From Ruminococcus flavefaciens (GTDB lineage: Bacteria; Bacillota; Clostridia; Oscillospirales; Ruminococcaceae): a stretch of 39,088 nucleotides of DNA. The notes beneath the pieces were generated by a model. The model ran no database searches. It saw nothing but the letters and a program-made list of their open reading frames with translations, and had not been told where the DNA came from. Shown here piece by piece: positions 23,180 through 38,088 of the stretch (the first letter of the stretch is position 1; every line of letters begins with the position of its first letter). The stretch spans positions 1-39,088 of the forward strand of contig CACWHY010000019.1 of NCBI GenBank assembly GCA_902760805.1. The letters run 5' to 3'. The translations under genes and the position numbers were made by a program.

Positions 23180-23201
23180 TAGAGATCTGGCATTAAAAAT
23201 C

Positions 23202-23356: not shown

Positions 23357-24256
23357 TTATCCGGCAAGATACTCGTTCAATTCTGCCAGTCTGCTCTTCA
23401 TATCGTTGTAGCCCAGCCAGTACAGCGCTCCCAGTTTATCCATATCACCCTCAAAGCGTGTGACTTCAACCGGCTTTGACGGCGCTATCAGGAACATCTC
23501 GCCGTCTGCGGACTTTTCCTCGAACATATCCACCATTTCGTTGAAATCCTCATTGACTTTTGCCATACTGTCAAGAAGATTCGGATATTTGCGGTACATC
23601 ACCTTTGCCAGCCCCGGAAGTCCAGGCTTTCTGCGGTATCCAAGCTCTCTTGTGCGGACCACCATGACCTTCTTTTCTCCTGACTTTTCCGACCACGGGA
23701 ACGGTATCTTTTCAGCACAGCCGCCGTCAAGATAGGGCACACCGTTTATCATCACCGGCTTTGAAACGTAAGGAACTGTTGCTGATGCCTGTACAGCCTT
23801 TGACAGCCTGCATTTGCCCTTTTCAAAGTATTCGACCTTGCCTGTCAGAAGATTTGTGGCAGATACAGCTAATCTCCGTGACGGATCGGAAAAACGCTTT
23901 TTATCCAGAGGAAGATCCTTGATTATCTTGTTGAACAGGTATGTAAAGCCCGTGATGCCGCCGTCCGTTTTAAGCGCCCCGATCCCGCAGTAATTCGGAT
24001 CATGGCGGTAAGTAAGGTCTATCCTTGCGCTCCAGCCGATCTGTCCCGAAACATAGCCGATCGCAGATAAGGCTCCTGCGGAACAGCCCACAACAGAAGT
24101 GAAGTTTATATCATTCATCATCAGGCAGTCAAGAACTCCCACCGTATAGAGTCCTTTCCAGCCTCCCCCCTCAAGAACAAGGCAGCCCGGCGTCAGCTTG
24201 TCTCCGGCTCTGCCGGTGGGGAGTTTATCAAGATGCCTGTAAACTTTTTTATTCAT
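23357..24256 (-). CDS. Patatin-like phospholipase (299 aa)
   Basis: A lipid acyl hydrolase of the patatin/RssA type, cytosolic or membrane-associated. The oxyanion loop is GGGWKG (residues 30-35). The nucleophile elbow is GCSAG with Ser59. The second catalytic residue is Asp177 in the DGG motif (PYLDGGCAEK). The length is usual for bacterial patatins. The ORF can be extended to 24319, but that stretch contains the promoter (TTGAAA-17-TATAAT), so I place the start at the ATG at 24256. It sits just past the terminator of the RiPP operon and has its own promoter, so it is probably a separate unit, transcribed in the same direction. Confidence 0.9.
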   Translation of the reverse strand: MNKKVYRHLDKLPTGRAGDKLTPGCLVLEGGGWKGLYTVGVLDCLMMNDINFTSVVGCSAGALSAIGYVSGQIGWSARIDLTYRHDPNYCGIGALKTDGGITGFTYLFNKIIKDLPLDKKRFSDPSRRLAVSATNLLTGKVEYFEKGKCRLSKAVQASATVPYVSKPVMINGVPYLDGGCAEKIPFPWSEKSGEKKVMVVRTRELGYRRKPGLPGLAKVMYRKYPNLLDSMAKVNEDFNEMVDMFEEKSADGEMFLIAPSKPVEVTRFEGDMDKLGALYWLGYNDMKSRLAELNEYLAG

Positions 24257-24290
24257 TCCATCATCGCTTTCTAATAATACTATACTAACT

Positions 24291-24319
24291 ATTATAACAC
24301 ACATGGCCAAATTTTTCAA
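24291..24319 (-). promoter_or_regulatory. Promoter of the patatin gene
   Basis: On the minus strand, TTGAAA (24314-24319), 17 bp and TATAAT (24291-24296). This decides the patatin start. Confidence 0.75.
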
Positions 24320-24331
24320 TCCGTTGCAGCA

Positions 24332-24395
24332 AAAAAGGGCTCGGTCCCAGTGCTTTCACATTTCGTGAAAGCCACTAAAACCGAGTCCGGATCTT
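24332..24395 (-). terminator. Terminator at the end of the RiPP operon
   Basis: Outer arms GGCTCGGT and ACCGAGTCC with an inner GCTTTCAC/GTGAAAGC hairpin, followed on the minus strand by a run rich in T. It lies about 30 bases after the DUF4097 protein stop. Confidence 0.7.
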
Positions 24396-24425
24396 TGATC
24401 GCCAACAAGTTCCCAATATGTGAGA

Positions 24426-25238
24426 CTATATTTTATTGTTGTTAAATCTGATATTGCCAAGGCCAGTGCTGATCGCCAGCTCATTACCGGGGACCTCTTT
24501 GCTGCATATCGCTCCGTCCCTGAGCTCCAGCTGATCAGAGTTCACAGTGATGTTGCCCTGTACGGCCGAGAGCTCTCCCGAGCCATCAAGAGCCAATGAC
24601 TCAGCAGTGATATTGCCGAGCTGTGTCTTGAATACCGAACCGTCAGACGATCTTACTGTATCCAGGCTCACATTGCCCAGTGAGGTGTTCAGATCAAAAT
24701 ATCCTGAAACATTTTTCAGAGTAATATTACCTATAGATGTTCTAATACTTTGATCCTTAACGCTATCAGGTACTCTGACAGTCAGATCAGCAGACAAGTT
24801 ATAGCCCTCATAAAGCTCCTCGATAGAGCTGTTCAGTTTCACGCCGCCGCAGTAATAATCAATACTGAGAACACCGTCCTCAATGCTGCACTTTACATCG
24901 AGGCTGCCGCTGATAAGATCGCATATCTCCTGTGAGGGACCCTGGATCTCATAGCTCAGTTCGCAGCCTGCACCTTCTTCTCCGCCGCCAATGACAGTTA
25001 CATTTCCCAGCGAATCAAAACGGAAGCTGTTTACCTCCCCTGCTGCCTCTCTGTTGATGCTGCCGGAGGTTTTTTTTGAAGTATTCACATTGACCTTTAC
25101 ATTGGTGCTGACCTTTGCATTAGTCGTCACCTTGACGCCGGTCTTGACACCATTCGTGTCGTTGCCTAAGTGATGAAGCCCACCGGCAGTTATGGCAGTC
25201 ACCGCAGGCACGAGAAATGAAAGTATCTTTTTCAGCAT
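24426..25238 (-). CDS. Secreted DUF4097-type beta-repeat protein of the RiPP operon (270 aa)
   Basis: A signal peptide (MLKKILSFLVPAVTAITAGG) is followed by a segment at residues 31-56 that alternates Val with Lys, Thr and Asn (VKTGVKVTTNAKVSTN, then VKVNVNTSKK). The rest is a beta-solenoid-like region of the DUF4097 kind, with repeated G-N-I/V-T/S-L turns (SLGNVTVIGG, SIGNITLKNVSGYFDL, SLGNVSLDTV, QLGNITAESL, VQGNITVNS, GLGNIRFNN). DUF4097 proteins are extracytoplasmic and of unknown function. This is the last gene of the operon, 35 bases after the third group-II precursor. The Val-Lys segment closely resembles the C-terminal tails of the three precursors encoded just before it (TVKVTVKV, ITVKVKV). 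It may be a partner, carrier or receptor for the mature peptides, but that is inference. Confidence 0.8.
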   Translation of the reverse strand: MLKKILSFLVPAVTAITAGGLHHLGNDTNGVKTGVKVTTNAKVSTNVKVNVNTSKKTSGSINREAAGEVNSFRFDSLGNVTVIGGGEEGAGCELSYEIQGPSQEICDLISGSLDVKCSIEDGVLSIDYYCGGVKLNSSIEELYEGYNLSADLTVRVPDSVKDQSIRTSIGNITLKNVSGYFDLNTSLGNVSLDTVRSSDGSVFKTQLGNITAESLALDGSGELSAVQGNITVNSDQLELRDGAICSKEVPGNELAISTGLGNIRFNNNKI

Positions 25239-25273
25239 GATCTACTGCTCCTTTCTGACTACAGGCAGGCCTA

Positions 25274-25402
25274 TCAGACCTTTACCTTGACGGTGATCTT
25301 GGTATTACCCGATGAATTTGTATAGCTGTTGCAAGCGTTTGAGCTGCATCCGTTGCAGAATGCAAGCTCTGCTGCCATTTTAGGCTCAACGATAAATCTC
25401 AT
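25274..25402 (-). CDS. RiPP precursor peptide, group II (42 aa), copy 9
   Basis: The leader is MRFIVEPKMAAELAF and the core begins at Cys16: CNGCSSNACNSYTNSSGN, then TKITVKVKV at the end. Cysteines are at 16, 19 and 24. A GAAAGGA ribosome site precedes the ATG. It differs from copy 8 mostly in the tail. The leader is shared with all nine precursors of the locus. The core combines a short cysteine-bearing head, an Asn/Ser-rich middle and an alternating beta-type tail. It is too short to be found by length-filtered gene calling. Probable substrate of the radical SAM enzyme at 31245. Confidence 0.85.
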   Translation of the reverse strand: MRFIVEPKMAAELAFCNGCSSNACNSYTNSSGNTKITVKVKV

Positions 25403-25435
25403 GATGATAATTCCTTTCTGTGATCATTATTCAGA

Positions 25436-25564
25436 TCAGACCTTGACTGTGACCTTCACAGTCGTATTTCCAGATGAATTGGTATAGCTGTTGCAGGCGT
25501 TTGAGCTGCATCCGTTGCAGAAAGCAAGCTCCTCTGCCTTTTTAGGCTCAACGATAAATCTCAT
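25436..25564 (-). CDS. RiPP precursor peptide, group II (42 aa), copy 8
   Basis: The leader is MRFIVEPKKAEELAF and the core CNGCSSNACNSYTNSSGN, with the tail TTVKVTVKV. Cysteines are at 16, 19 and 24. AAAGGAGCTGAGATC precedes the ATG. Its leader codons are nearly identical to copies 7 and 9, showing recent tandem duplication. Spacing to the next copy is 33 bases. Likely co-transcribed with the ABC exporter upstream. Confidence 0.85.
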   Translation of the reverse strand: MRFIVEPKKAEELAFCNGCSSNACNSYTNSSGNTTVKVTVKV

Positions 25565-25599
25565 GATCTCAGCTCCTTTCACACATTATTTGTCAGCCG

Positions 25600-25734
25600 T
25601 CAGACCTTTACTGAAACGTTTACATCCACACCAGTGTTGCCTGATGAATTAGTATAGTCGTTGCAGGAATTAGATCTGCAGCCGTTGCAGAAGGCAAGTT
25701 CCTCAGCCTTATTTGGCTCAACGATAAATCTCAT
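25600..25734 (-). CDS. RiPP precursor peptide, group II (44 aa), copy 7
   Basis: The leader is MRFIVEPNKAEELAF and the core CNGCRSNSCNDYTNSSGN, with the tail TGVDVNVSVKV. Cysteines are at 16, 19 and 24. AAAGGAG lies before the ATG. It is the most diverged of the three group-II copies, and its tail is two residues longer. It lies 62 bases after the ABC exporter stop. No clear promoter is seen in that gap. Confidence 0.85.
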   Translation of the reverse strand: MRFIVEPNKAEELAFCNGCRSNSCNDYTNSSGNTGVDVNVSVKV

Positions 25735-25796
25735 GCTCTCAGCTCCTTTCAGGTTTACTTTTTCGATCTGTCAGCAATAAGGAAGACTCAAGAGCG

Positions 25797-27458
25797 TCAC
25801 CTTGAACAGCTTATCGTTCCGTCTGCGAAATCAAGATACACAGACGGCACGCTGAAGTTTGTCTCATCATGCGAGATGAGCAGCACCAGTTTATCTGATG
25901 CGATCTCTTCGATAAGCTGATTGACTATCCTTGTATTCTCGCTGTCAAGAGCCGATGACGGCTCATCGAAAACTATTATGGATGAATCCTTCAGCAGCGC
26001 CCTTGCAATGAGCAAGCGCTGCTTTTCGCCTCCCGAAAGATCGGCCTTTTCGCTTATGACCGTATCATAACCTTCTTCAGTGCTGCCGATCCTATCCGCC
26101 AGCTTGATCCTCTTGCAGATCTCATCGACACGCTGGCGTGAAACGTCCTTTAGTCCGTAGGTCAGGTTGTTGTAGAAGGTATCGTTCAGAAGATCAAGTT
26201 CCTGAGGAACATATGCGATATGGCTCCTAAGTGTCGCAAGAGACAGCTTGTTCACGTCACTATCCCCATAGAAAATAGAGCCGTCGCTTACCGGCAGAAG
26301 TCCCATGAGCATCCTGATAAAGGTGCTCTTTCCTGATCCGGACTCACCACGCAGTACCACCAGTCCCTTTCCCGGCAGATCAAATGAAGCCTTCTCAAAT
26401 ATGAGCTTCTTGGTCTTGGTCTTGTCGGGAGCCACAGTCTCATATTCAAATCTCAGATCCCGAATGGATATGCTGTCAAAGGTGAAATCAGGATCAACTG
26501 TGCCCAGTTCCTCCTGCTCGATGCTCTCATATTTTGTGATCCTTTCAAGAATTGGCTGTATAACATGGAAGTTGATGCCCATATTCGTAAGCTCGAACAA
26601 AGGCTGCTCAAGGAGCTGGAAATACAGACCCAGAGCAATAACGTTTCCGATAGTCAGCCTGCCATTGAGCACATAATAGGCGCCAAGTCCGTAGATGATG
26701 CCCAGGCATGAGATGATGATCATGCTGGTGACTCCTGTGCTGATACCACGGAAGGTGTCCATCTTCACATTGGTCCTTCTCATACGGTCTATGACAGAAT
26801 CATACTTCCTGATCTCAGCTTCCTCGGTATTATAGGCTTTTATGGCAAGAAAACCGTTGTATGACTGATTGATACATCCGCATATGTCGTCATAGTTCTT
26901 CTGCACCTGCTTTGAGAGCTTTCTGTTAAATCGGGTGAAATTGTAATTTACTATGAAGTATACAATGAATATGCCAAAGACCAACAGGGTTATCTGCCAT
27001 GACTTGATACACATACCCACAACGATGAGCATGATAAGCAGAACATCCTTTATAACAACGGAAAAGAGATTTGAGATGAAGCTGCTGGCTCCTCTTCCGT
27101 CATTCATGATGACTGAGAGTATATCACCGCTTTTCAGCCTTGAAAAGAAGGCGAAATCTGTCTTCATCAGCCGGCTGAACAGCCTCTTGCGGACGTCTGA
27201 GGTTATGTTCTCGGTCACTCGGATAAAGAAGAAGTCCCGAATGACTCCGGACAGCGGCTGTATAAGACATACCGCAACAAATATTATTATTCCGTATATC
27301 AGCTTTTTATACTGATCCGCTATGAGCACCTCGTCGATAAGGTATTCAGAAGCTACAGGCGTCAGGAAGGATCCTAGCGCTGCAAGCAAAGTGAACAGTA
27401 TGCCTACTATCTCAAGTCTGACATAGGGCTTTAGCATTTTTCTTAAAACCGAAAACAT
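25797..27458 (-). CDS. ABC exporter, fused membrane and ATPase domains (553 aa)
   Basis: A half-size ABC exporter. Six transmembrane helices lie in residues ~15-300 and an ATPase domain follows, with Walker A GESGSGKST (371-379), Q-loop, signature LSGGEKQR, Walker B IIVFDEP and the H-loop LLISHDE. It dimerises to pump substrate out of the cell. It lacks the N-terminal C39 peptidase domain found in many bacteriocin exporters, so leader removal must be done by another protein. The zinc protease gene immediately upstream ends one base before this ATG, and its last codons carry the ribosome site (AAGGAG), so the two are translationally coupled. The likely substrate is the modified peptides of this locus. 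Confidence 0.9.
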   Translation of the reverse strand: MFSVLRKMLKPYVRLEIVGILFTLLAALGSFLTPVASEYLIDEVLIADQYKKLIYGIIIFVAVCLIQPLSGVIRDFFFIRVTENITSDVRKRLFSRLMKTDFAFFSRLKSGDILSVIMNDGRGASSFISNLFSVVIKDVLLIMLIVVGMCIKSWQITLLVFGIFIVYFIVNYNFTRFNRKLSKQVQKNYDDICGCINQSYNGFLAIKAYNTEEAEIRKYDSVIDRMRRTNVKMDTFRGISTGVTSMIIISCLGIIYGLGAYYVLNGRLTIGNVIALGLYFQLLEQPLFELTNMGINFHVIQPILERITKYESIEQEELGTVDPDFTFDSISIRDLRFEYETVAPDKTKTKKLIFEKASFDLPGKGLVVLRGESGSGKSTFIRMLMGLLPVSDGSIFYGDSDVNKLSLATLRSHIAYVPQELDLLNDTFYNNLTYGLKDVSRQRVDEICKRIKLADRIGSTEEGYDTVISEKADLSGGEKQRLLIARALLKDSSIIVFDEPSSALDSENTRIVNQLIEEIASDKLVLLISHDETNFSVPSVYLDFADGTISCSR

Positions 27459-28058
27459 TTATTTCTCCTTGAAAGCTGTAATAGACTCTCTGAGAGTCTT
27501 GTCCCCTAGCGGCCCATGTGCTGAGAAATTCTCAGCATCATCAGCAAGGGCCAGTATACCGCCGATACTGCGGACACTGGTAAGAGCGTCCATTAGAAGC
27601 GAGGAATATCTGTAGAGCATTGGGTCTTCATACCCTATGCAGGCGATATCCTTCTCCTGAGGCGGCATCCCGATGGCTTCAGTGCTTCCTATCTGTCCTG
27701 CAAAGTACATCGCCAGCCCTTCATCGAGCCATCTTGGGATCCCTTTGCCGTATCTGGCATTTGCAAGGCAGTGAGCGCACTCATGCACAAGAAGATCATC
27801 ATAGCCGTTAGGCTCCGGCTCCAGCCAATAAGACTGTTCCAAAAAACAAACGCAGTTCCTGAAAGATAATGCCTTCACCCAGGGCGGGATATTGACCCCA
27901 AGTGCTTTTTGCATCGTATCCGGACAGGAAAATACCTTGACATACCATCGGTAGCTTTCTGCCCCGTAGATCTTGATCATCTTTTCGATCCTGCCTCTGT
28001 TCCGCATTACGGGACCGCATATCCGGCTAAGGGAAAACATATCTGAAAACCTGAACAC
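27459..28058 (-). CDS. Small cytosolic zinc protease (gluzincin, peptidase MA-like), candidate leader peptidase
   Basis: The active-site motif is HECAH (His92, Glu93, His96), with the third ligand in WLDEGLAMYF (Glu113), the usual gluzincin spacing. This is the peptidase MA-like arrangement. The protein has 199 residues, no signal peptide and no membrane helix, so it acts in the cytosol. It sits between the ATPase gene (7 bases upstream) and the exporter (coupled). The exporter has no peptidase domain, so this protease is the best candidate to cut off the 15-residue leaders. The start is a GTG at 28058 with GAGGC upstream; the ATG 6 codons later is also possible. The role is inferred from position and motif. 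Confidence 0.8.
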   Translation of the reverse strand: MFRFSDMFSLSRICGPVMRNRGRIEKMIKIYGAESYRWYVKVFSCPDTMQKALGVNIPPWVKALSFRNCVCFLEQSYWLEPEPNGYDDLLVHECAHCLANARYGKGIPRWLDEGLAMYFAGQIGSTEAIGMPPQEKDIACIGYEDPMLYRYSSLLMDALTSVRSIGGILALADDAENFSAHGPLGDKTLRESITAFKEK

Positions 28059-28065
28059 GCCTGCC

Positions 28066-28752
28066 TCAGTCCTCGAAAGGTGCCCTGTCCAGTCTGATCT
28101 TCTGCCTTTGGACAGTTATATGGACGTTGCCATAGTTTTTAGGGATGTCCGGATCATGAGTCACCATTACTATGGCAGTGCCAAACTCTTCATTGAGCTT
28201 ACGGAACACCTCCATGACTACCGCTCCCGTTTCGTCGTCAAGATTTCCCGTAGGCTCGTCAGCGAAAATAATATCCGGGTCTATAGCAAGAGCTCGTGCA
28301 ATTGCGACTCTCTGCTGCTGTCCGCCGGAGAGCTGATAGGGAAAGGCTCCAGAAAGCTCTGAGATCCCTACCACCTTCATGATATTGGCGATACGTCCCT
28401 TATCCTCAGCACCCACCCTGCGTTCAAAGGAGATCGGCAGGCAGATATTATCAAATACTGAGATAGAAGGGATAAGATTGTAAAACTGGAAAACAAAACC
28501 AAAGGACTTCCGCCGCAGCCGGCTCATTTCCTTGTCGCTGAGGCGGTTTATCTCCCTTCCGTCAAATATCACTGAGCCGCTGGTGGGCTGTTCAAGTCCG
28601 CTCATGGTATACAGCAGCGTGGATTTTCCGGAGCCTGATCTTCCAGTGACTACAGCGAAATCGCCCTTTTTTATCTCAAAGGATATATCGGTCAGCACCT
28701 GCGTTGTGACCGCACCTTCATACTGCTTTGATACATTTCTGACTTCTAACAT
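28066..28752 (-). CDS. ABC transporter ATPase, MacB/LolD type (228 aa)
   Basis: A stand-alone ATPase with Walker A GRSGSGKST (residues 37-45), Q-loop FQFYNLIPSISV, signature LSGGQQQRVAIARAL, Walker B DIIFADEPTGNLD and H-loop VMVTHD. The ADEPTGNLD form and the length put it with the ATPases of FtsX-type permeases (LolD, MacB, BceA). It pairs with the 812-residue permease encoded immediately before it. In RiPP loci such pairs give self-protection or export. Its stop is 7 bases from the protease start. Confidence 0.92.
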   Translation of the reverse strand: MLEVRNVSKQYEGAVTTQVLTDISFEIKKGDFAVVTGRSGSGKSTLLYTMSGLEQPTSGSVIFDGREINRLSDKEMSRLRRKSFGFVFQFYNLIPSISVFDNICLPISFERRVGAEDKGRIANIMKVVGISELSGAFPYQLSGGQQQRVAIARALAIDPDIIFADEPTGNLDDETGAVVMEVFRKLNEEFGTAIVMVTHDPDIPKNYGNVHITVQRQKIRLDRAPFED

Positions 28753-28804
28753 ATTCTTCCCTTTCAGATCTATCCTTTCCTATCAGCAAATATCATGGCA
28801 GATG

Positions 28805-31243
28805 TCACAAAGCCCTTTTCTTGATGTTCTCAACGATGTCAGCTCTGAAAAGCTCTCTTTTCAAAAGCACCAGCTTGCAGACCACATATGCTGCGGATAT
28901 CACTGCTGCGATAGCCAGGATATACATGGGGCTGCAAAAACGTGTGCTGCCCTCTCCGTAATAAAAGGAGACGATCCCCCGAACTATCCTGTTCAAGAAA
29001 TAAGCGAATGGCAGGGCATAGAGCATATTCACTGCCGCATTCACAGCAGATCCTATGAGCTCCGTGGCCGTAAGCAGGGCTTTGTCCGCACCCACAGTGC
29101 GAAGTATCACATAATTGCCCATCCTTCTTTGCAGACACAGCTTGACGGTGTTATAAAGGCAGATAAGTGCGACCAGACCCATGAAGCACGAGAGAGCCAC
29201 TATTATCCGTATCATCATCTGGTTTCTCTCGTTGTTATTTTGGAAAAGCTCCTCTGTTGTCTCTACGAAGATGTCCACAGAGAGCTCATCGGCCCTTTCC
29301 CTTATCTTTTCCACACAAGAGCTCGGAGAAGCGCATCTGAAAAGCACTACATCGAAGCTCTGTCCGTAGTCCATGCCTTCAAGAGTCTCATAGGAGGTAT
29401 AGATAACTCTGCCCATATTGTCATAGGTAGCAGCGATGCCCTTAACAGTGAGCTCAGTGCCGCAGCACATAAATCTATCGCCCTTCTCAAGGTCTAGGTT
29501 CTTGGCTGCTGTACTTGATATGATAACACTGTTCTTTTCCAGGAGCCGCTCAAAAAGCTCCTGGTGGCTGACTTTTTCACCATAGACATATTCATAATCC
29601 CTTTTGCTATAGTCCTCAGCAGGTACAGCCTCAATAGTATAGGTCTGACCGCTGAGCTCTGCCGAGGCCTTTCTCAGCCTAAGATGATCCTCCGCCGATA
29701 TATCCTCAGCAATGCTTTCCAGTTCATCATCTGTAAGCTCAGAATAGACCTCTGTATAAATGCTCTGATCCCCGTATATCTTGGAGATAGAGCGGTCAAG
29801 ATCAGACGAAACTGATCTGGCAACGATCAGAAGCACGATAACAAAGGCCGCCAGATCAAAGATGAGCGTATAGCTGGATCTTGATGAGCTTAACTGCTTG
29901 AGACCTATGGTATATCTGCTCAAACCCAGGTGCTCCGTAAGTGCCGTGAGGATCCCTACAGCTATTTCCGACAGCAGTATCATGGATATCAGCGTAAGCA
30001 CCAGCGCTGTCAGAAGTCCCACAAGCACGCCGCTGCTTGTGAAGTACAGAACCACAGCCGCAGCAAGGCATAACGCTCCGGCCGGACCCTTGTACAGCTT
30101 CTTCTTTTCCTCGCAGACACCTGATCGGAGTATGCTTATGACAGACATCGAGGCCTGCCTGTAGATACCGGCTATAACGCTCAGGATACAAACGATCAGT
30201 GCTCCGCCGTAGATGATCAGCAGCAATACCGGGCTCAAAGACAGTGTGCTGTCCCCGGGATACCCTACAAATATCCCAAGCATCGCCTTGATGAGCATCC
30301 TGCTCAAAAAATAGCTGAAGATACAAGCTGTCAGGTATGTTATCAGTGTCTGTTTCAGGACGAATGCGATGTACCCTTTCATTGACATACCTATGCTTCT
30401 AAGTACAGCCATTTCAGAGGACTGCTCATATATAAGAGTACGGTACAGTGAGAATATGAGATACACTGCCATGATGATCGCGAATACCACAAATATCCTC
30501 AGCGCCAGCACTATGGTAAACACGAATGAGTCAAAGAATGAGGAATCGTATTTCTGTGAGATCTCAACATCATGACCGTCCAGCACCTTATTCAGAGCAC
30601 TGACAGTATCGTCGATCAGCTCAGGATCTTCCAGGGAAACGTCGATCCGATCTGCTCCGCTGCCGATGATCTTTTCAGCCACCATACGGTCTGTGAGGAG
30701 ACAGGTGCTAAAATTATCGAACAGACTGCATTTCTCGTCACATATCGCAGATATCTCCAGAGTCACCTGTGACTCTCCGGTGGTTATCATCACCTGGTCT
30801 CCCACTGACAGCCCATACTTCTCAGCCAGCTCACGGCTTATCATAAGCCCGCTGTTCTCCTCAGTCCCGATCTCTCCGGAAACTACAGGGATCTCTGAAA
30901 GACTGTTCTGCACCCCGTAATCCACACCGTAAAGCGTGAACGCATCGCTGCTTATATCAGAAAACACCTGTGTAACTGTTTTGGGAACAGTAAGGTTGAC
31001 ATTATCAGCACTTTCTATGAGCGAGGCGATCTTCTCGGGATCCTCGCCTTCGCCTACAGAAATGATGATCTCTTCGTTCATAGTCATGTCAGCCAACTGC
31101 TTTATACGGATATCTCTTGTGATCTCCTCAAAGGATAGGGAAACTATAGCCGTAACAAGAGTTATAACTGAAATGACAAGTATGATGATGTGCTTGACCA
31201 GGTTTTTTTTCAGGTTGTGGAGCAGGATCCTGTTTTCGCCCAT
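28805..31243 (-). CDS. FtsX-type ABC permease with two FtsX domains (812 aa)
   Basis: A mechanotransmission-type permease. An N-terminal helix (HIIILVISVITLVTAIVSL) is followed by a large extracytoplasmic domain (to about residue 235). Then come an FtsX unit of three to four helices, four or so central helices, a second extracytoplasmic domain (about 480-660), and the closing FtsX unit (MMIRIIVALSCFMGLVALI, and TELIGSAVNAAVNMLYALP). This layout resembles two-domain FtsX permeases such as YtrF/SalY-like proteins. It works with the ATPase at 28066. Its ATG lies one base from the end of the radical SAM gene, so they are translationally coupled. Likely role: immunity to, or export of, the mature peptides. 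Confidence 0.88.
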   Translation of the reverse strand: MGENRILLHNLKKNLVKHIIILVISVITLVTAIVSLSFEEITRDIRIKQLADMTMNEEIIISVGEGEDPEKIASLIESADNVNLTVPKTVTQVFSDISSDAFTLYGVDYGVQNSLSEIPVVSGEIGTEENSGLMISRELAEKYGLSVGDQVMITTGESQVTLEISAICDEKCSLFDNFSTCLLTDRMVAEKIIGSGADRIDVSLEDPELIDDTVSALNKVLDGHDVEISQKYDSSFFDSFVFTIVLALRIFVVFAIIMAVYLIFSLYRTLIYEQSSEMAVLRSIGMSMKGYIAFVLKQTLITYLTACIFSYFLSRMLIKAMLGIFVGYPGDSTLSLSPVLLLIIYGGALIVCILSVIAGIYRQASMSVISILRSGVCEEKKKLYKGPAGALCLAAAVVLYFTSSGVLVGLLTALVLTLISMILLSEIAVGILTALTEHLGLSRYTIGLKQLSSSRSSYTLIFDLAAFVIVLLIVARSVSSDLDRSISKIYGDQSIYTEVYSELTDDELESIAEDISAEDHLRLRKASAELSGQTYTIEAVPAEDYSKRDYEYVYGEKVSHQELFERLLEKNSVIISSTAAKNLDLEKGDRFMCCGTELTVKGIAATYDNMGRVIYTSYETLEGMDYGQSFDVVLFRCASPSSCVEKIRERADELSVDIFVETTEELFQNNNERNQMMIRIIVALSCFMGLVALICLYNTVKLCLQRRMGNYVILRTVGADKALLTATELIGSAVNAAVNMLYALPFAYFLNRIVRGIVSFYYGEGSTRFCSPMYILAIAAVISAAYVVCKLVLLKRELFRADIVENIKKRAL

Positions 31244-31244
31244 A

Positions 31245-32573
31245 TCAGGCGTTATTAGCTACTGAAAGTCTTTGCAAGCAGATGACCTTCAATGAATCGA
31301 TGAGAGAATACTTCCAGCGCTCACATGATAGCTTATGATTTTCAACATAGTCAAACGGACATCCGCCCATGCAGATAGGGAGCACCTCACAGTTCCTGCA
31401 CTCCTCACGCTCCCAGGGATAATGAGTCATGTACTTGATGTCTCGGCTGATCATATCGTCAGTATATTCGGTCGTCTCCCAGAGGATATTTCCCACTGAC
31501 TGCTCGATACAGCCTACTTCGTTCCAGCACTTGTACTTATAGCCTTCGTGATCGATAACGAATGTGCAGATGGAATCAGCTCCGCAGTAATTCGCCTTGA
31601 TACCAGGATAATGAGGATATGCCTGAGCACAGAAGCCGCAGTCATGGAGCTTTTTCTGGAGCTCAAGCACCTCTACGGAATACTCCTTGGTGCTCATACA
31701 GTTGCTCTTGACCTTGCTGCTGTTATCAGTATTTGCTTTTACATGGCCGAAGGAGATATTGGTCTTGGTCTTGTCGATGCCTACCTCAGGACTTGCCAGA
31801 TATTCGATCAGCCTATTAGTGTTCTCGATATTGGTCTTATCAACATTGATCCTGATAACGACTCTGCTCTCGCTTCTGTTGAGCATCCTGACTGTTTCGA
31901 TGATCTTGTCAAAAGTTCCGATCTCGGGAGTCTTTTTGAGGATCCTTCGGGTATTGTGGACCTCTTTTGTTCCGTCGATAGTTATCTGTGCATATCTGAT
32001 ACGGTACTTGTTGAACTTCTCGATATCCTCTTCCTCGAAAAGATAACCATTTGTGATGATACCAGCAGTATATGGCACCTCATATCTGGAGCAGATCTCC
32101 ATAAATCTCTCGGAGAGATCATAGATGATGCTCTTTGCAAGGAGAGGCTCGCCGCCGTACCAGGTGATGTCGATGTTCTTTTTCTGGCTTGCATTCTGCT
32201 CTACCAGCTCCACTAGCTTATCCTGGACCTCCTTGGACATCATTCCGGGTCTTGCTGTCTCATAGCAGTAAGGACAGGCAAAATTACACTGGATCGTAGG
32301 AGCTATGACCAGTGAGAAGAAGCTGTCATTGAATTTACCACGGTTGTTCCTGTATTTGAGGATCTTCAGCTCATCTGAATCATCCCCCAGGATAAATCCG
32401 CCCTTCTTCATATCAGCGACTATCTGTCTGCTGTCGTCCTCGGAAATACTATCCAGAGAGTTATAGACGCTGAAGAACTCATCGTCTACCTCAGCAAGGC
32501 CGCAGGTCATGGCGTTGAAAGCGATCTTTCTATCCTCGTAATCAAAAAATATGTTGTACTTTGACTTTATCAT
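31245..32573 (-). CDS. Radical SAM/SPASM peptide maturase (442 aa)
   Basis: The modifying enzyme of the locus. The N-terminal ~80 residues are a separate domain of the kind that binds leader peptides. The radical SAM cluster motif is CNFACPYC (Cys96, Cys100, Cys103), followed by YGGEPLL, IITNGY and ITIDGTKEVHN. The C-terminal SPASM region holds further cysteines (NYCGADSIC, KCWNEVGC, CRNCEVLPICMGGCP, SCERW) for two auxiliary iron-sulfur clusters. This matches enzymes that build thioether (sactipeptide/ranthipeptide) or related crosslinks in Cys-rich peptides, including the maturase called CcpM. It has six precursor genes just upstream and three more downstream. The exact bond it makes cannot be told from sequence. 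Confidence 0.92.
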   Translation of the reverse strand: MIKSKYNIFFDYEDRKIAFNAMTCGLAEVDDEFFSVYNSLDSISEDDSRQIVADMKKGGFILGDDSDELKILKYRNNRGKFNDSFFSLVIAPTIQCNFACPYCYETARPGMMSKEVQDKLVELVEQNASQKKNIDITWYGGEPLLAKSIIYDLSERFMEICSRYEVPYTAGIITNGYLFEEEDIEKFNKYRIRYAQITIDGTKEVHNTRRILKKTPEIGTFDKIIETVRMLNRSESRVVIRINVDKTNIENTNRLIEYLASPEVGIDKTKTNISFGHVKANTDNSSKVKSNCMSTKEYSVEVLELQKKLHDCGFCAQAYPHYPGIKANYCGADSICTFVIDHEGYKYKCWNEVGCIEQSVGNILWETTEYTDDMISRDIKYMTHYPWEREECRNCEVLPICMGGCPFDYVENHKLSCERWKYSLIDSLKVICLQRLSVANNA

Positions 32574-32594
32574 TGTGTTCCATCCTTATTACGA

Positions 32595-32684
32595 TCATGT
32601 ATTTGGCTTGCACTTAACATTGCATGAGCAGATAACGCAGAAGCCGACCTCATAAATATTTGTGGGTTGGATAATATATCTCAT
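32595..32684 (-). CDS. RiPP precursor peptide, group I short form (29 aa), copy 6
   Basis: The leader is MRYIIQPTNIYEVGF and the core CVICSCNVKCKPNT. Cysteines are at 16, 19, 21 and 25. It is the shortest of the set, lacks the second C-N-C pair, and lies 21 bases before the radical SAM gene. The leader and the fixed Cys16 support it. The ribosome site is AAGAGG. Confidence 0.75.
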   Translation of the reverse strand: MRYIIQPTNIYEVGFCVICSCNVKCKPNT

Positions 32685-32698
32685 AACTTTACCTCTTT

Positions 32699-32812
32699 TC
32701 ACTTTGATGTAGTATATGTGGAGCCGCCGTTGCAGACACAGTATTCTCCATTACAGCCGCAGTAGCAGGCTGAAAGAACTGTAGTTTTCTTAGGTTCAAC
32801 AATATATCTCAT
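32699..32812 (-). CDS. RiPP precursor peptide, group I (37 aa), copy 5
   Basis: The leader is MRYIVEPKKTTVLSA and the core CYCGCNGEYCVCNGGS, with the tail TYTTSK. Five cysteines at 16, 18, 20, 25 and 27 give a C-x-C-x-C ... C-x-C arrangement. It ends in Thr/Ser-Lys like copies 3 and 4. It lies downstream of a 11-bp perfect hairpin in the transcript. Confidence 0.8.
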   Translation of the reverse strand: MRYIVEPKKTTVLSACYCGCNGEYCVCNGGSTYTTSK

Positions 32813-32865
32813 TTTGGGGACCGCCCTTTCGATAAATATTTTTCATAATAATAAGCGCAAATGTC

Positions 32866-32913
32866 CCAGAGAAGTGCTCATTAAGGGACTCTGTCGCAAG
32901 ATCACTTCTCTGG
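32866..32913 (-). promoter_or_regulatory. Stem-loop between precursor genes
   Basis: A perfect 11-bp stem CCAGAGAAGTG/CACTTCTCTGG with a 26-base loop and no T run. It is more likely an RNA processing or stability element than a full terminator. It separates precursor copies 4 and 5. Confidence 0.6.
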
Positions 32914-32924
32914 AACTGATACGA

Positions 32925-33065
32925 TCATTTTGTTGATGCATAATTGTTGTCGGTATGTCCTGTTACCTCGCCACGGCAATTGCAGTTTCCGCCTTCGCCG
33001 TTGCAGGAGCAGCCATAACAAAATGCCTTCATATCATTAAGATCGGGCTCAATAATGTAGCGCAT
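32925..33065 (-). CDS. RiPP precursor peptide, group I (46 aa), copy 4
   Basis: The leader is MRYIIEPDLNDMKAF and the core CYGCSCNGEGGNCNCRGE, followed by a polar tail with TGHTDNN and STK. Cysteines are at 16, 19, 21, 28 and 30. Its core is almost identical to copy 2 (CYGCSCNGEGGNCNCRGG, TGHTD), which shows duplication, although copy 3 lies between them. Confidence 0.85.
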   Translation of the reverse strand: MRYIIEPDLNDMKAFCYGCSCNGEGGNCNCRGEVTGHTDNNYASTK

Positions 33066-33083
33066 TTTCATTCTCCATTCTTT

Positions 33084-33104
33084 ACTGCGGATAAATGCCG
33101 CAGT
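33084..33104 (-). promoter_or_regulatory. Short stem-loop between precursor genes
   Basis: A perfect 7-bp stem ACTGCGG/CCGCAGT with a 7-base loop in the gap between precursor copies 3 and 4. A similar small stem (GGCC/GGCC arms, 33313-33330) lies in the next gap. Confidence 0.5.
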
Positions 33105-33123
33105 TTATAGTTTCGGATCAAGC

Positions 33124-33264
33124 TCACTTTGTGGTAGCAGTGTTAGAATTACCATACTGTGAACCGCTTCCATCACAATTGCAGTTACCATTGCCGCTTC
33201 CGTTGCAGTCGCACTTGCACATTGCAATGAAGGACTGGTCTGCGGGCTCAATAATAAATCTCAT
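33124..33264 (-). CDS. RiPP precursor peptide, group I (46 aa), copy 3
   Basis: The leader is MRFIIEPADQSFIAM and the core CKCDCNGSGNGNCNCDGS, followed by a Gly/Ser/Asn-rich tail ending ATTK. Cysteines are at 16, 18, 20, 28 and 30. The first cluster is C-x-C-x-C rather than C-x-x-C-x-C. GGAGGAAG precedes the ATG. Confidence 0.85.
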   Translation of the reverse strand: MRFIIEPADQSFIAMCKCDCNGSGNGNCNCDGSGSQYGNSNTATTK

Positions 33265-33343
33265 CCTTTCTTCCTCCTTCCAACGTCAGATAAGTATGAT
33301 ACCTAGGCACACGGCCCCTTCATAAAGGCCAGCGCCTACAGGA

Positions 33344-33481
33344 TCAGCTGTTTGCCACATTTGTATCAGTATGGCCTGTGCTGCCTCCACGACAGTTACA
33401 GTTACCGCCCTCGCCGTTGCAGCTACAGCCGTAACAGTAAGCATACACATCAGCGTAAGCAGGTTCTACGATGAACTTCAT
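33344..33481 (-). CDS. RiPP precursor peptide, group I (45 aa), copy 2
   Basis: The leader is MKFIVEPAYADVYAY and the core CYGCSCNGEGGNCNCRGG, with the tail STGHTDTNVANS. Cysteines are at 16, 19, 21, 28 and 30. GGAGGGG lies before the ATG. It is the only copy with Lys at residue 2. Confidence 0.85.
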   Translation of the reverse strand: MKFIVEPAYADVYAYCYGCSCNGEGGNCNCRGGSTGHTDTNVANS

Positions 33482-33519
33482 ATGATCCCCTCCTTTCGTA
33501 TGGGATGAAGTTTTTCGCC

Positions 33520-33666
33520 TTACTCCTCCGGCAATTCAGGTACTCGAACAGGCGAATACTTTTCAAAATCTCCAAAGCAGTTGCAGAAGCCCAGAGGCAG
33601 ATTACAACCGCAGCCGAAGCAGAATGAAAGTGTATTCTTATCCGTTGGCACAACGATATATCTCAC
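33520..33666 (-). CDS. RiPP precursor peptide, group I (48 aa), copy 1
   Basis: The leader is MRYIVVPTDKNTLSF, starting at a GTG with AAGGAGG at 7-base spacing. The core is CFGCGCNLPLGFCNCFGD with an acidic, Pro-rich tail (RVPELPEE). Cysteines are at 16, 19, 21, 28 and 30 as in copies 2 and 4, but the loop between the pairs is hydrophobic instead of Gly-rich and the tail is unique. It is the first precursor, 24 bases after the unrecognised 226-residue gene. Confidence 0.82.
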   Translation of the reverse strand: MRYIVVPTDKNTLSFCFGCGCNLPLGFCNCFGDFEKYSPVRVPELPEE

Positions 33667-33690
33667 ACAGATCCCTCCTTTATCTTTTTA

Positions 33691-34371
33691 TCACAGCACC
33701 CATACAGCGCCTAACGTGTATCTCTGATATGCTCCTTTGATAGGGTGCATACCCTGTTTCCTGCACAGCTTTTCCGTAGCCATGCTTTCCCGGGCCGTAA
33801 CGCCCAGATACCCAAGATCCACATCATTGCTGCCGAGCCGTGATGTCTCATGATCCTGAACGAAGCAGGATCCTGCCGGCTCGATAAGCAGACCGCCGCC
33901 GTGTTCAGTCCATTTCTGCAATACATCCAGATAAAGCTCCAAGGCTCTGAACTGGTTAGCCAGGGTGAGCCTATCCCTCCAGACGGAGGTCTGACCAAAT
34001 CCGGCCATGATATAGTTCTCTCTTGAGACAGCCTTTTCAGCTCCCGGAACTTGAGAAAGTGGAACTCTTTCAAGCCATTCCTCTTCACCTAAAGCTCTTT
34101 TCATCCAACACTGACAGTCCAGTATCTGCTCTCTCGTGCGATAGAAAAAAGTAGCCTTTCCCACCTCAAAGTCTCCGCCGTTTTCGGCAGCGCTCATCAG
34201 GAGAGTCGCAGAGCTGTCAGTATCAAAGTTGAGCCGGAAGTCATAGTCATTGCCGAAGGACTGTGAGGCATACTTCTGCTCATCTCCCATCAGCATCTTC
34301 ACGGTATATTTACTGTCTGAATGACTGTCAGCAGCCTGACTTATGATATCAAGAAAATCTCCGTAATCCAT
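33691..34371 (-). CDS. Unrecognised protein at the head of the RiPP operon (226 aa)
   Basis: It resembles no family I know. It is soluble and opens with MDYGDFLDIISQAADSHSDS. It contains strands such as DYDFRLNFDTDSSATLLMS, an aromatic-rich segment (KATFFYRTREQILDCQCWM), a helical region (LTLANQFRALELYLDVLQKW), and a C-terminal GGGLLIEPAGSCF/LGYLGVTARE part. The ATG at 34371 has AGGAG ten bases upstream, whereas the in-frame GTG at 34380 is too close to that site. It is the first full-size gene after the candidate LytTR-controlled promoter, and the precursor genes follow 24 bases later. Its place suggests a leader-binding, accessory modification or immunity role, but no motif supports any one of these. 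Confidence 0.8.
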   Translation of the reverse strand: MDYGDFLDIISQAADSHSDSKYTVKMLMGDEQKYASQSFGNDYDFRLNFDTDSSATLLMSAAENGGDFEVGKATFFYRTREQILDCQCWMKRALGEEEWLERVPLSQVPGAEKAVSRENYIMAGFGQTSVWRDRLTLANQFRALELYLDVLQKWTEHGGGLLIEPAGSCFVQDHETSRLGSNDVDLGYLGVTARESMATEKLCRKQGMHPIKGAYQRYTLGAVWVL

Positions 34372-34395
34372 AAAGATCACACTCCTGACCGCCGA

Positions 34396-34443
34396 TCAGC
34401 CGAAAAGCCATGCAAAGAAATTGATAATACATACTGAAATCAT
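34396..34443 (-). CDS. Possible 15-residue hydrophobic peptide (MISVCIINFFAWLFG)
   Basis: A 16-codon frame with GGAG at 8-base spacing, lying about 14 bases after the predicted transcription start and 24 bases before the next gene. The product is almost entirely hydrophobic with one cysteine. It could be a leader peptide, a membrane peptide or a signal for the neighbouring kinase, or it could be chance. No AgrB-like protease is in the window. Confidence 0.35.
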   Translation of the reverse strand: MISVCIINFFAWLFG

Positions 34444-34463
34444 GATCTCATCTCCGTATCAAA

Positions 34464-34516
34464 ATTATATTAAACAGCAATGAATAGAACTCTACAGGCA
34501 TCTTTCCGACTCTGCA
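34464..34516 (-). promoter_or_regulatory. Candidate LytTR-controlled promoter of the RiPP operon
   Basis: On the minus strand the -10 is TATAAT (34464-34469), but the box 17 bp upstream is GAGTTC, a poor -35. Two direct repeats on the plus strand, ACTCTACA (34489-34496) and ACTCTGCA (34509-34516), are 20 bp apart, about two helical turns. The first overlaps the -35. A weak -35 with paired repeats fits activation by a LytTR regulator such as the one at 35940. The match to known LytTR sites is loose. Confidence 0.5.
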
Positions 34517-34532
34517 TGAGCGCCATGCTGTG

Positions 34533-34579
34533 CTGAAAAAAAACTCAACTGCACGTTAATAATAACATGAGTTGAGTTT
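34533..34579 (-). terminator. Terminator after the kinase gene
   Basis: On the minus strand, a 9-bp stem AAACTCAAC/GTTGAGTTT followed by eight T. It separates the regulatory genes from the RiPP operon. Confidence 0.85.
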
Positions 34580-34629
34580 CATTTCAATGATTTGCCGTTT
34601 AACGGTCTTTCAATCCGTCTAAACGGTAT

Positions 34630-35928
34630 TCAGCCCCGTGAAGCAAAAGGGATAACGATCTCTACAGCGAAGCGGCCGTCTTTATACCTGTATTTCATAT
34701 CTCCGCCGTGTTTTTCAAGGCACTCCCGGACATTCATCATACCAAATCCGTGGTTTTCCTTATCCGACTTGCGTGTGATAAGTCTGCCCTTGCTGCTGCG
34801 CACACTGCCCACAAAATCGTTCTCGATCACCAGCATCATGCTGCCTGCCACGGTCTTTATCACTAGGCTCACATTTCCGCCGTCCGGACATTCCGCTGCT
34901 GCACAAAAAGCGTTCTCCAGCAGGTTTGAAAAAATGGTGCATACATCGGCATCGGAAATACTAAGCTCCTCAGGCATATGTCCCTTCAGCACCAAGTTCG
35001 TCTTGCTGTATCGTCCGGAAATATCGTTCAATATGGCATTTGCCACCACATTTCCCACCTGAAATTTCGGCTTGCAGTTGTTGATAGAGCCTACGAGCTC
35101 AGTGATATAGTCAGCGGCCTCATCGTATTTTTTCTCGTTGAGGAGCGAACGCACACACAAGAAATGATTTGAGATGTCATGCCTGAACTTCCTGGTATCC
35201 CTGTCGTTATTGTAAAGCAGGTCATAGTATTCCCTCTGAGTTTGAAGGAGATAATTATTGACTCTGTCAAGCTCCCGGTATCTATTTTTGGAAGTATTAT
35301 TGTATATGAGCAGCACCGCTATCACCATGAACATCACCGCATACACGATCACTGCAAGGCCCACGATCATGGCGTTTTTGTCGGAATGTCTGTATTCGGT
35401 AAGAGTATACGGGGCGCAAAGCATCAGCGAGGCCACCTGTCCGGCAATGATCAGAACAGTACAGATGCTGTCCACATTGTCAGGAGAATACTCGTGAAAT
35501 CTGCCCTTTTTATACACATATTTCTGCAATATGAACACTATCGCAGCAATAACGATGATGCTTGCAGAATCTATAGCCGACATGATGTAAGGGCGGTCGA
35601 TAACATCCGGCGGAAGGGAAAAGATCTTCCTGATGATCCAGAACAATGTATCATCTATGAGGCATATCCCGAAAAACGAGGATACCGCAAAAAGGAAGCG
35701 CCGCTTTCCCCTTACTGCCATGGTACAGACTACTGTTACAAAGAACGACAGCACCGTTATCATAGCGCTGTCCGGAGCATACAGACTTGCGCCCGCAGCA
35801 GTCAGCATAAGTACAGCGAAGGCTGCAAAGGCGTACCAGGACCACTTTAGTCTGAAGTTTAATATTCCGCAAAGGCAGAGCAGCAGCTTAATGTGCTCCA
35901 CCAGCATAGTGACAAGATCAACGATCAT
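34630..35928 (-). CDS. GHKL-type sensor histidine kinase, AgrC-like (432 aa)
   Basis: Six or seven N-terminal helices (to about residue 210) form the sensor. A helical dimerisation region with the motif FRHDISNHF (phospho-acceptor His250) follows, then a GHKL ATPase domain with FSNLLENAFCAA (N-box), MMLVIENDF and GFGMMNVRECLEKHGGD (G-box). This is the layout of AgrC/ComD-like kinases that usually sense peptides. The ATG at 35928 is preferred over the GTG three codons earlier because GAGGTG is then well spaced. It lies 11 bases after the regulator stop and ends at a strong terminator. Its ligand is unknown. A product of the downstream locus is one possibility. Confidence 0.9.
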   Translation of the reverse strand: MIVDLVTMLVEHIKLLLCLCGILNFRLKWSWYAFAAFAVLMLTAAGASLYAPDSAMITVLSFFVTVVCTMAVRGKRRFLFAVSSFFGICLIDDTLFWIIRKIFSLPPDVIDRPYIMSAIDSASIIVIAAIVFILQKYVYKKGRFHEYSPDNVDSICTVLIIAGQVASLMLCAPYTLTEYRHSDKNAMIVGLAVIVYAVMFMVIAVLLIYNNTSKNRYRELDRVNNYLLQTQREYYDLLYNNDRDTRKFRHDISNHFLCVRSLLNEKKYDEAADYITELVGSINNCKPKFQVGNVVANAILNDISGRYSKTNLVLKGHMPEELSISDADVCTIFSNLLENAFCAAAECPDGGNVSLVIKTVAGSMMLVIENDFVGSVRSSKGRLITRKSDKENHGFGMMNVRECLEKHGGDMKYRYKDGRFAVEIVIPFASRG

Positions 35929-35939
35929 ACCATTCACCT

Positions 35940-36641
35940 CTACAGCACTCTTGCGTTCTTTCTGACGAAATCCAGGTATTCGCTTTTGAATTTCGCAGTT
36001 TTCCGCCGTGATATGGTGAGTTCATCGTCTATGCAGGAAAGAGTCAGCTTGTTGTTCTCAACAGACTCGATATAAGCCAGGGATACCATATACGATTTAT
36101 GTATCTGGAAAAATCCCTTGTCATGCAGCTTGTTCTCCCACACCTTCAGCTGCACTGAACAGACGTAGGTATTTCCGTTCTTATCGTAGACATAGGTGCC
36201 GTCACCGAAGGCCTCGAACATGACCACATCCTTCAGCGGAAGGGTGACCTTCATATTTCTCTGGTTTATGACGATCTTTTCGGAATCACGAAGTTCCTCA
36301 TTTATGCAGTCCATGGCCTCGAAAAAGTCCTGCTTGACCAGAGGCTTGTTCAAGAAGCGGAAGGCCTTTACCTTAAAAGTCTCAAATACCTGCTCAGAAT
36401 GGCTGGTGATAAATATCAGATACGACTCCACGCCACGTCTTCTGAGCTCATGGGCTGTAGCGAGGCCGTTTATCTCGTCCATTTGAAGGTCTAGAAAGAT
36501 CACATCAAAATCCTGTTTATCCTTAAGAAGTGCAGCGCCGCTCTCAAATTCAAAAGAAAGAATGGTGGCATCGTATTCTTCCAGAAGCTCCAAAATTTGT
36601 TTTCTATGAAAAGCTTCATCATCACAGATCGCAACTCGCAT
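35940..36641 (-). CDS. LytTR-family response regulator, AgrA-like (233 aa)
   Basis: The receiver domain covers residues 1-120, with the acidic pocket CDDE (Asp7, Asp8), phospho-acceptor Asp51 in IFLDLQM, Thr/Ser in FITSHS and Lys in FRFLNKPL. The C-terminal LytTR DNA-binding domain (about 130-230) includes VVMFEAFGDGTYVYD, FQIHKSYMVSLAYIESVENN and the closing ISRRKTAKFKSEYLDFV. It is partner to the kinase encoded 11 bases downstream, and its probable target is the promoter at 34464. It has a strong promoter of its own, so the pair appears constitutively expressed. Confidence 0.93.
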   Translation of the reverse strand: MRVAICDDEAFHRKQILELLEEYDATILSFEFESGAALLKDKQDFDVIFLDLQMDEINGLATAHELRRRGVESYLIFITSHSEQVFETFKVKAFRFLNKPLVKQDFFEAMDCINEELRDSEKIVINQRNMKVTLPLKDVVMFEAFGDGTYVYDKNGNTYVCSVQLKVWENKLHDKGFFQIHKSYMVSLAYIESVENNKLTLSCIDDELTISRRKTAKFKSEYLDFVRKNARVL

Positions 36642-36757
36642 TATCCTGCTCCTTCCATGCGTTATTCATTATAAATAATATAGAAATATCAGTCGCAAGG
36701 CTAGTATTACCCCAAGTATAATACTCACCGCAGATAACTTTTAGTGTATTCCTATAT

Positions 36758-36786
36758 ATTTTAACATAGATCTTCGCTTTTGTCAA
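36758..36786 (-). promoter_or_regulatory. Promoter of the regulator/kinase pair
   Basis: On the minus strand, perfect TTGACA (36781-36786), 17 bp and TAAAAT (36758-36763). Confidence 0.75.
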
Positions 36787-36828
36787 TGAAAAACCCTATG
36801 ATCAGCACAGGATCATCTGGTAATATAA

Positions 36829-36860
36829 AAACCGCCGCAGCCAAAAGACTGCGGCGGTTT
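36829..36860. terminator. Strong GC-rich hairpin
   Basis: Arms AACCGCCGCAG and CTGCGGCGGTT with an 8- to 10-base loop, upstream of the regulator promoter. It insulates it from the gene at 37101. Confidence 0.75.
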
Positions 36861-36989
36861 GTTCCTCTAAAATTACCCGATCATGAAATTCCATAACATT
36901 ATATCGCCTTTTTTCGTGTGAATATTGACTGATTTTTCTTCACACGCAACTGCAAAAATGGAGTTCAAACTGCTTTCTGTATGTAACAG

Positions 36990-37033
36990 AAAAGCCTGTA
37001 TTTCGGTGCTTTCCTCGAAATACAGGCTTTTTG
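36990..37033. terminator. Second hairpin terminator
   Basis: Arms AAAGCCTGTATTTCG and CGAAATACAGGCTTT with a 10-base loop and flanking A/T runs. It can act on either strand. Confidence 0.75.
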
Positions 37034-37069
37034 ATCCTGTCTGTACTTAACAAAATTGATGACACACGG

Positions 37070-37093
37070 CAAAAGGCTATTTTAAGCCTTTTG
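37070..37093 (-). terminator. Terminator after the small LRR gene
   Basis: Arms CAAAAGGCT and AGCCTTTTG with a 6-base loop, 8 bases after the stop at 37101. Confidence 0.7.
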
Positions 37094-37100
37094 TCATAAT

Positions 37101-38075: not shown

Positions 38076-38088
38076 GGAATATCGTAAA

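Follow-up and report, generated by a model that had tools for sequence, protein, structure and literature searches.

A Clo7bot-like radical SAM peptide operon in Ruminococcus flavefaciens and its probable inducer, a very short peptide with tryptophan

The stretch of DNA analyzed here (the window) is one whole 39,088-bp contig, CACWHY010000019.1, and part of a 2.73-Mb draft genome of Ruminococcus flavefaciens. We read a locus within it as a Clo7bot-type operon for ribosomally synthesized and post-translationally modified peptides (RiPPs), dependent on a radical S-adenosylmethionine (SAM) enzyme, most likely antimicrobial, and auto-induced by a very short leaderless peptide, and we give this reading a probability of roughly 0.6. 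The probable inducer of the cluster is a tryptophan (Trp)-containing peptide encoded by a 15-codon open reading frame (ORF) downstream of an AgrC-like kinase gene. A preliminary description of this DNA had listed the genes, and every one of them was located on the minus strand in the order given: cysteine-rich, leader-bearing peptides adjoin a radical SAM/SPASM enzyme in a multi-precursor RiPP locus, and the locus has its own peptide-type signaling genes, a LytTR regulator, a GHKL kinase, and the 15-codon ORF. The interpretation built on these genes is partly supported, as set out below. The leader motif occurs eight times in the six frames of the window and not once in 200 mononucleotide shuffles, and the gene set recurs elsewhere, so the locus is more than a chance assembly. 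What the analysis shows is the gene identities, the motifs, the folds by model, and the co-occurrence. The features of the locus are as follows.

36758..36786, minus strand: sigma-70-like promoter TTGACA-17-TAAAAT ahead of the regulator gene (11 of 12 consensus matches; consensus only)
35940..36641, minus strand: LytTR response regulator (Response_reg and LytTR domains)
34630..35928, minus strand: AgrC-like GHKL histidine kinase (GHKL domain, 70.4 bits)
34595..34627, minus strand: LytTR-type direct repeat ACCGTTTAGACGG / ACCGTTAAACGG, 21 nt apart (read from the sequence)
34559..34587, minus strand: promoter-like TTGAAA-17-TATTAT with TG preceding the -10 (10 of 12 consensus matches)
34536..34579, minus strand: A/T-rich hairpin and T run, with the -10 inside the upper stem-loop (absent from the predicted terminator list)
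34396..34443, minus strand: 15-codon ORF MISVCIINFFAWLFG, candidate pheromone (counterparts at other kinase loci)
33691..34371, minus strand: GNAT-fold protein, 226 amino acids (aa) (fold by model)
33520..33666, minus strand: type A precursor 1, GTG start (TIGR04333, 18.3 bits)
33344..33481, minus strand: type A precursor 2 (TIGR04333, 14.9 bits)
33124..33264, minus strand: type A precursor 3 (leader motif; no TIGR04333 match)
32925..33065, minus strand: type A precursor 4 (TIGR04333, 15.0 bits)
32699..32812, minus strand: type A precursor 5 (TIGR04333, 20.2 bits)
32595..32684, minus strand: type A precursor 6, 29 aa (TIGR04333, 28.3 bits)
31245..32573, minus strand: radical SAM/SPASM maturase, CtpM-like (TIGR04334, 499 bits; Radical_SAM domain)
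28805..31243, minus strand: FtsX/MacB-type permease (domain match)
28066..28752, minus strand: ATPase adjoining the permease (domain/family match)
27459..28058, minus strand: gluzincin metallopeptidase (HECAH ... E), 199 aa, proposed leader peptidase (motif, model, and recurrence)
25797..27458, minus strand: ABC exporter without peptidase domain (ABC_membrane and ABC_tran)
25600..25734, minus strand: type B precursor 1 (TIGR04333, 23.9 bits)
25436..25564, minus strand: type B precursor 2 (TIGR04333, 23.9 bits)
25274..25402, minus strand: type B precursor 3 (TIGR04333, 22.7 bits)
24426..25238, minus strand: DUF4097-like beta-repeat protein with hydrophobic N-terminus, proposed immunity/envelope protein (PF13349, 17.4 bits)
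24336..24391, minus strand: inverted repeat and T run, likely operon end (read from the sequence; absent from the predicted terminator list)

The maturase carries a CNFACPYC motif and a cysteine-rich C-terminus. A search against radical SAM subfamilies placed it nearest to the Clo7bot peptide maturase CtpM (TIGR04334), the top of 56 NCBIfam matches at 499.2 bits against a cut-off of 600, with the next family at 300 bits; PapB reached 124.8 bits (cut-off, 340). The comparison with CcpM drawn in the preliminary description did not hold, and that assignment was rejected on its score (TIGR04068, 78.6 bits against a cut-off of 500). Since the maturase and all peptides fall under curated cut-offs, the RiPP part is, judged by these profiles, a Clo7bot-like variant and not a member of the curated family. 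In a tree, the window maturase belongs to a six-member clade (support 100/100) with sequences from a Roseburia metagenome-assembled genome (MAG; locus L025 in our numbering), a Eubacteriales MAG (L026), and three Peptococcaceae, the inner order being open. Among 297 genomes of the family, nine, including the window's own, have a TIGR04334 match at E ≤ 1e-60; the four listed genomes from the same genus have none. The L025 maturase, searched against 397 genomes, returned itself and two matches at 35 to 36% identity. Among plasmids there were 127 records, the best from Paraclostridium at ~50% identity, and viral contigs gave two maturase matches. Peptococcaceae precursors of the maturase clade (L027, 5742-5930; L028, 5514-5654) are His/Gly-rich with few cysteines, and for this reason the clade may take very different cores.

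Eight of the nine precursors match TIGR04333 (best, 28.3 bits), all below the cut-off of 31. Two precursor groups had been described around a single maturase; two core types, A and B, are indeed present, but their leader is shared. Because of this common leader and the TIGR04333 matches, both peptide types look like substrates of the single maturase. The two cores co-occur in the window, L025, and L026, and type B was found nowhere else among the fetched loci (a regular-expression scan of those loci, with the window outside it, returned L025 and L026 only). The tails of the type B peptides (V-x-V-x-V) look similar to the membrane-proximal linker in the neighboring DUF4097-like protein, and in L025 and L026 tail and linker are also alike in charge; the peptides and the protein lie at 25274-25734 and 24426-25238 in the window, at 9141-9812 and 7847-8692 in L025, and at 9759-9899 and 15184-16029 in L026. 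The score of tail against linker was reached by 2 of 1,000 linker shuffles in L025 and by 11 of 1,000 in L026, while the window's three tails did not stand out (43 to 152 of 1,000); the comparison is underpowered. Elsewhere, L097 encodes at 11894-12154 an 87-aa peptide with a Clo7bot leader and an Asp/Gly-rich tail, the usual precursors being 30 to 50 aa long.

We tabulated gene neighborhoods around the best 80 of 181 loci recovered by maturase alignment. With the window, 15 loci are close (the 14 others at 42 to 56% identity) and 66 distant. The gluzincin was found in 14 of the 15 close loci (not in L034) and in none of the 66 distant ones. Window-type GNAT proteins occur in 7 and a second GNAT type in 6 of the close loci, together in 12 of 15, with 0 of 66 among the distant; DUF4097-like proteins occur in 6 of 15 (the window and five others, on the opposite strand in L031) and, weakly, in 1 of 66. 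Close loci themselves supplied the sequences for the profiles behind these counts (13 gluzincins, for example) and those members match by construction, so that the independent part of the count is the gluzincin of L083 together with the absence in the 66 distant loci; since several contigs are short, absences of the kit give lower bounds. Precursor array, gluzincin, GNAT, and DUF4097-like protein are thus recurrent beside close maturases. The preliminary description had called the combination unknown from described systems. Instead, because the kit recurs in the close loci and a Paraclostridium plasmid carries a nearly identical set, the combination is, on gene content, ordinary for the family; a multi-precursor array, a gluzincin encoded separately, and a protein with beta repeats all belong to its regular parts.

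In the gluzincin, residues H92, E93, H96, and E113 are invariant across 14 sequences. Its structure model (predicted local distance difference test [pLDDT] score, 92) sets the HExxH motif and downstream Glu in a metallopeptidase fold, nearest among the listed folds to a collagenase peptidase domain, while its PF13485 match lies under the Pfam cut-off; we propose that it is a cytosolic leader peptidase. The 226-aa protein, called unrecognized in the preliminary description, indeed has no Pfam match at E 0.1 and no NCBIfam match at E 0.01, but its structure model and fold search assign it a GNAT fold, with putative acyl-CoA use. One fold search, over the listed folds, was made for each of these two models. 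The DUF4097-like protein scores 17.4 bits with PF13349, under the gathering cut-off of 22.9, and four of its relatives have no PF13349 match at E 0.01. The exporter had been described as peptidase-less, and its Pfam matches bear this out, comprising ABC_membrane and ABC_tran and no C39 domain.

The peptide of the short ORF is hydrophobic, aromatic, and leaderless and contains one Trp. In L026, where the kinase is 31% identical to that of the window by BLAST and 22% over the full alignment, the counterpart ORF after the kinase is preceded by a ribosome-binding site and encodes MVCLSVLGDFWKWFFGN or a version with two more codons. We counted such ORFs after related kinases, defined by an ATG start, 12 to 32 codons, a ribosome-binding site, one Trp plus three aromatic residues, and a distance of at most 340 nt from the kinase stop. 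They follow 16 of 98 distinct kinases, a count that is not a rate because the relatives are the best-scoring loci only and later searches used kinase profiles built from positive loci. As controls, the opposite strand gave 1 of 98, stretches farther downstream 1 of 96, and the inside of the kinase gene 0 of 98. The definition was shaped by six cases, and 10 of the 16 positives come from the 92 loci unseen when it was set; its distance limit was raised from 330 to 340 nt after L215 was found at +333, and the shorter limit gives 15 of 98. The first count had been 7 of 68 (controls, 1 of 68 and 0 of 68). Further examples are MAFSIPDWLWRWLFP, MKCDMFAWIWKWFM, MNILLWSGFWGWFFG, and MHFFYANIFDDIWKKLFG, and 6 of the 16 peptides end in FG or LG by manual count. 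Nine negative loci reread under looser rules yielded Trp ORFs in L193, L199, and L210, one ORF without Trp in L194, and nothing convincing in the other five.

After the kinase stop of the window come the direct repeats and then a promoter-like TTGAAA-17-TATTAT site whose -10 sits in the A/T-rich hairpin; L026 and L156 are alike in this, other loci less so. Against per-locus shuffles, the repeats of L026 (reached by 2 of 300) and L155 (15 of 300) stand out, while those of the window, L154, L156, L157, and L188 do not. A strict repeat pattern had no match across the window's own genome because the first window repeat is one base longer. CGTT pairs 20 to 22 nt apart, a measure picked after seeing the data, occur at 9 of 16 kinases with a short ORF, 9 of 82 without, and 1 of 98 control stretches. 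AgrB (PF04647) was not found in the window's genome, which is 96.5% complete, and the reading of the short ORF as an AgrD was therefore rejected. AgrB is present in 6 of 14 genomes searched, never beside the module and at the nearest 33 kb away on one contig.

A regulator was recognized beside the kinase in 15 of the 16 modules (not in L233), and 7 modules have RiPP or bacteriocin genes next to them: the window and L026 (Clo7bot), L155 (LanM by Pfam, the one locus so tested), L232 and L238 (genes that from size and motif we take to be LanM and C39-like exporters), L156 (double-Gly-like precursors and a presumed C39-like exporter), and L236 (a presumed C39-like exporter within 2 kb). At L240 (4191-14356), the module with MILFDLLDLLLWLFGGRR lies ahead of an ABC pair and other genes. 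One genome (G683) holds three regulator-kinase-short-ORF modules (L154, L155, and L026), each with its own peptide. One belongs to the Clo7bot locus and the other two lie close to a lanthipeptide cluster, possibly as parallel channels. In contrast to the short Trp ORFs, AgrD-like peptides stand after other kinases from the same genomes (L128 and L126).

From these observations we infer the functions of the peptides, the crosslink chemistry, the antimicrobial role, and each biochemical step of the following scheme. The regulator and AgrC-like kinase would be expressed from their own promoter. The 15-aa peptide would leave the cell and be sensed by the kinase without AgrB. The phosphorylated regulator would then bind the direct repeats downstream of the kinase gene and activate the promoter that transcribes the short ORF first. 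This would close a positive loop and switch on the GNAT gene, nine precursors, maturase, and transport and immunity genes. The CtpM-like enzyme would crosslink cysteines in both core types through their common leader, the gluzincin would cut off that leader in the cytosol, the GNAT protein may acylate the product, and the peptidase-less ABC protein would export it, while the FtsX/ATPase pair and DUF4097-like protein would protect the producer. Tentatively, and with slightly less than even confidence, we suggest that Clostridia encode a family of leaderless 14- to 25-aa Trp/Phe-rich peptides beside one group of AgrC-like kinases as AgrB-independent pheromones, and that the regulator and kinase, together with the short ORF and its promoter with direct repeats, work as a portable switch for Clo7bot, lanthipeptide, and class II-type bacteriocin clusters.

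Several points weigh against auto-induction of a Clo7bot-type operon by this peptide. Eighty-two of the 98 kinases lack a short ORF, including some with repeats (L195, L200, L214, and L220), and 9 of the 16 modules have no recognized bacteriocin genes adjoining. The short peptides share little besides aromatic richness, that of the window has a single Trp, and no exporter for it is recognized. The window repeat pair alone is not significant, being reached by 70 of 300 shuffles, and the maturase and all nine peptides score under curated cut-offs. Leader peptides such as TrpL and TnaC act through ribosome stalling, and the short ORF, being Trp-containing and first in the operon, could be such a cis-acting leader, stalling on Trp/aromatic codons to tune the RiPP operon while the kinase senses something else. 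We consider this quite improbable: the ORF tracks one group of kinases (16 of 98) while the genes behind it differ widely, the next gene begins 24 nt (window) or 41 nt (L026) past the stop, leaving little room for an attenuator (gaps are longer at other loci), and Rfam gave no match within 22800-39088.

Small connector proteins are known to modulate kinases directly. A hydrophobic, aromatic, leaderless peptide with no dedicated exporter in sight might likewise remain inside the cell as a small membrane peptide and act on the kinase, the outside signal being a separate one. Yet 7 of the 16 modules adjoin bacteriocin genes, where inducing peptides are usual, and the sequences vary between loci as those of pheromones do, which leaves this idea a small chance of being right. 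A different doubt concerns the products, which might be signals or agents for the producer's own envelope instead of antimicrobials, with type B tails pairing with the DUF4097-like protein. Type B peptides do occur only where that protein occurs (the window, L025, and L026), the tail-linker likeness is seen in L025 and L026, and a title cited in PMC8326336 links SCIFF ranthipeptides to clostridial quorum sensing. However, the window tails do not stand out, three loci are involved, and the transporter pair and regulation resemble those of a bacteriocin locus; we think this alternative unlikely, albeit with an appreciable chance. An antimicrobial operon under its own peptide pheromone remains our preferred reading.

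Our search of the open literature (preprints and most subscription journals outside its scope) found nothing on Clo7bot, TIGR04334, or CtpM with radical SAM (the name TIGR04333 was not searched) and no description of short, Trp-rich ORFs next to kinases of the AgrC type; the signaling module may be new. The recurring gluzincin, GNAT, exporter, and DUF4097-like protein suggest concrete roles for the Clo7bot family. Should the short Trp ORFs prove to be pheromones, they would supply AgrC-like kinases that lack AgrB with a ligand of 14 to 25 codons, a size gene callers tend to overlook, and synthetic peptides could activate silent bacteriocin clusters.

Directly downstream of the locus, at 23357-24319, lies a gene for a patatin-like phospholipase with DUF6363, probably unrelated and with its own promoter-like site (24319-24291); promoter-like sites across the whole region number 27 against 22.5 in shuffles (standard deviation, 5.8), which is no excess. 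The proteins flanking the locus (20850-22886 and 37101-37598) contain leucine-rich-repeat-like stretches, as read from their translations. PADLOC, run on six proteins, returned viperin models for the maturase, phospholipase effector models for the patatin gene, and a weak CARF/LolE model for the permease, none of which we took as defense. A PHROGs search with three proteins matched only function-less families or generic radical SAM.

The closest known system is Clo7bot on the Paraclostridium bifermentans plasmid NZ_CP079738.1, which shares with the window a leader-bearing precursor array before one CtpM, followed by an HExxH protein, exporter, DUF4097 protein, and GNAT. The plasmid encodes seven peptides annotated as Clo7bot, one further peptide with the leader, ctpM, a "hypothetical" protein with an HEFIH...E motif, and the GNAT gene further along. 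The window differs in scoring below curated cut-offs, in type A and B cores unlike those of the plasmid, in its FtsX/ATPase pair, and in its regulator-kinase-short-ORF module, absent from the plasmid stretch examined. L025 and L026 share the maturase clade, type A and B peptides, and GNAT-type and DUF4097-like proteins with the window, and L026 also has the regulator, kinase, and short ORF, whereas gene order differs, as does precursor number: five in L025 and nine in L026 (three ahead of the maturase and six after the exporter). M1/M61 metallopeptidases (AplP and others) trim lanthipeptides according to PMC10885120, and they resemble the window system in placing a zinc gluzincin-type enzyme beside a RiPP, while the window gluzincin has 199 aa, a collagenase-like fold by its model, and a different modification enzyme for company. 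With agr quorum sensing, the window shares a GHKL kinase and a LytTR regulator with direct repeats, but its genome has no AgrB, a 15-codon leaderless peptide stands in the place of AgrD, and the AgrC (24.1 bits) and AgrA (42.9 bits) profiles fall far under cut-off on the window pair. Short hydrophobic pheromones (SHPs) reportedly control RiPPs together with Rgg regulators; the likeness would be a very short hydrophobic peptide gene controlling a RiPP, and the difference is that the sensor in the window would be a membrane kinase and not an Rgg regulator.

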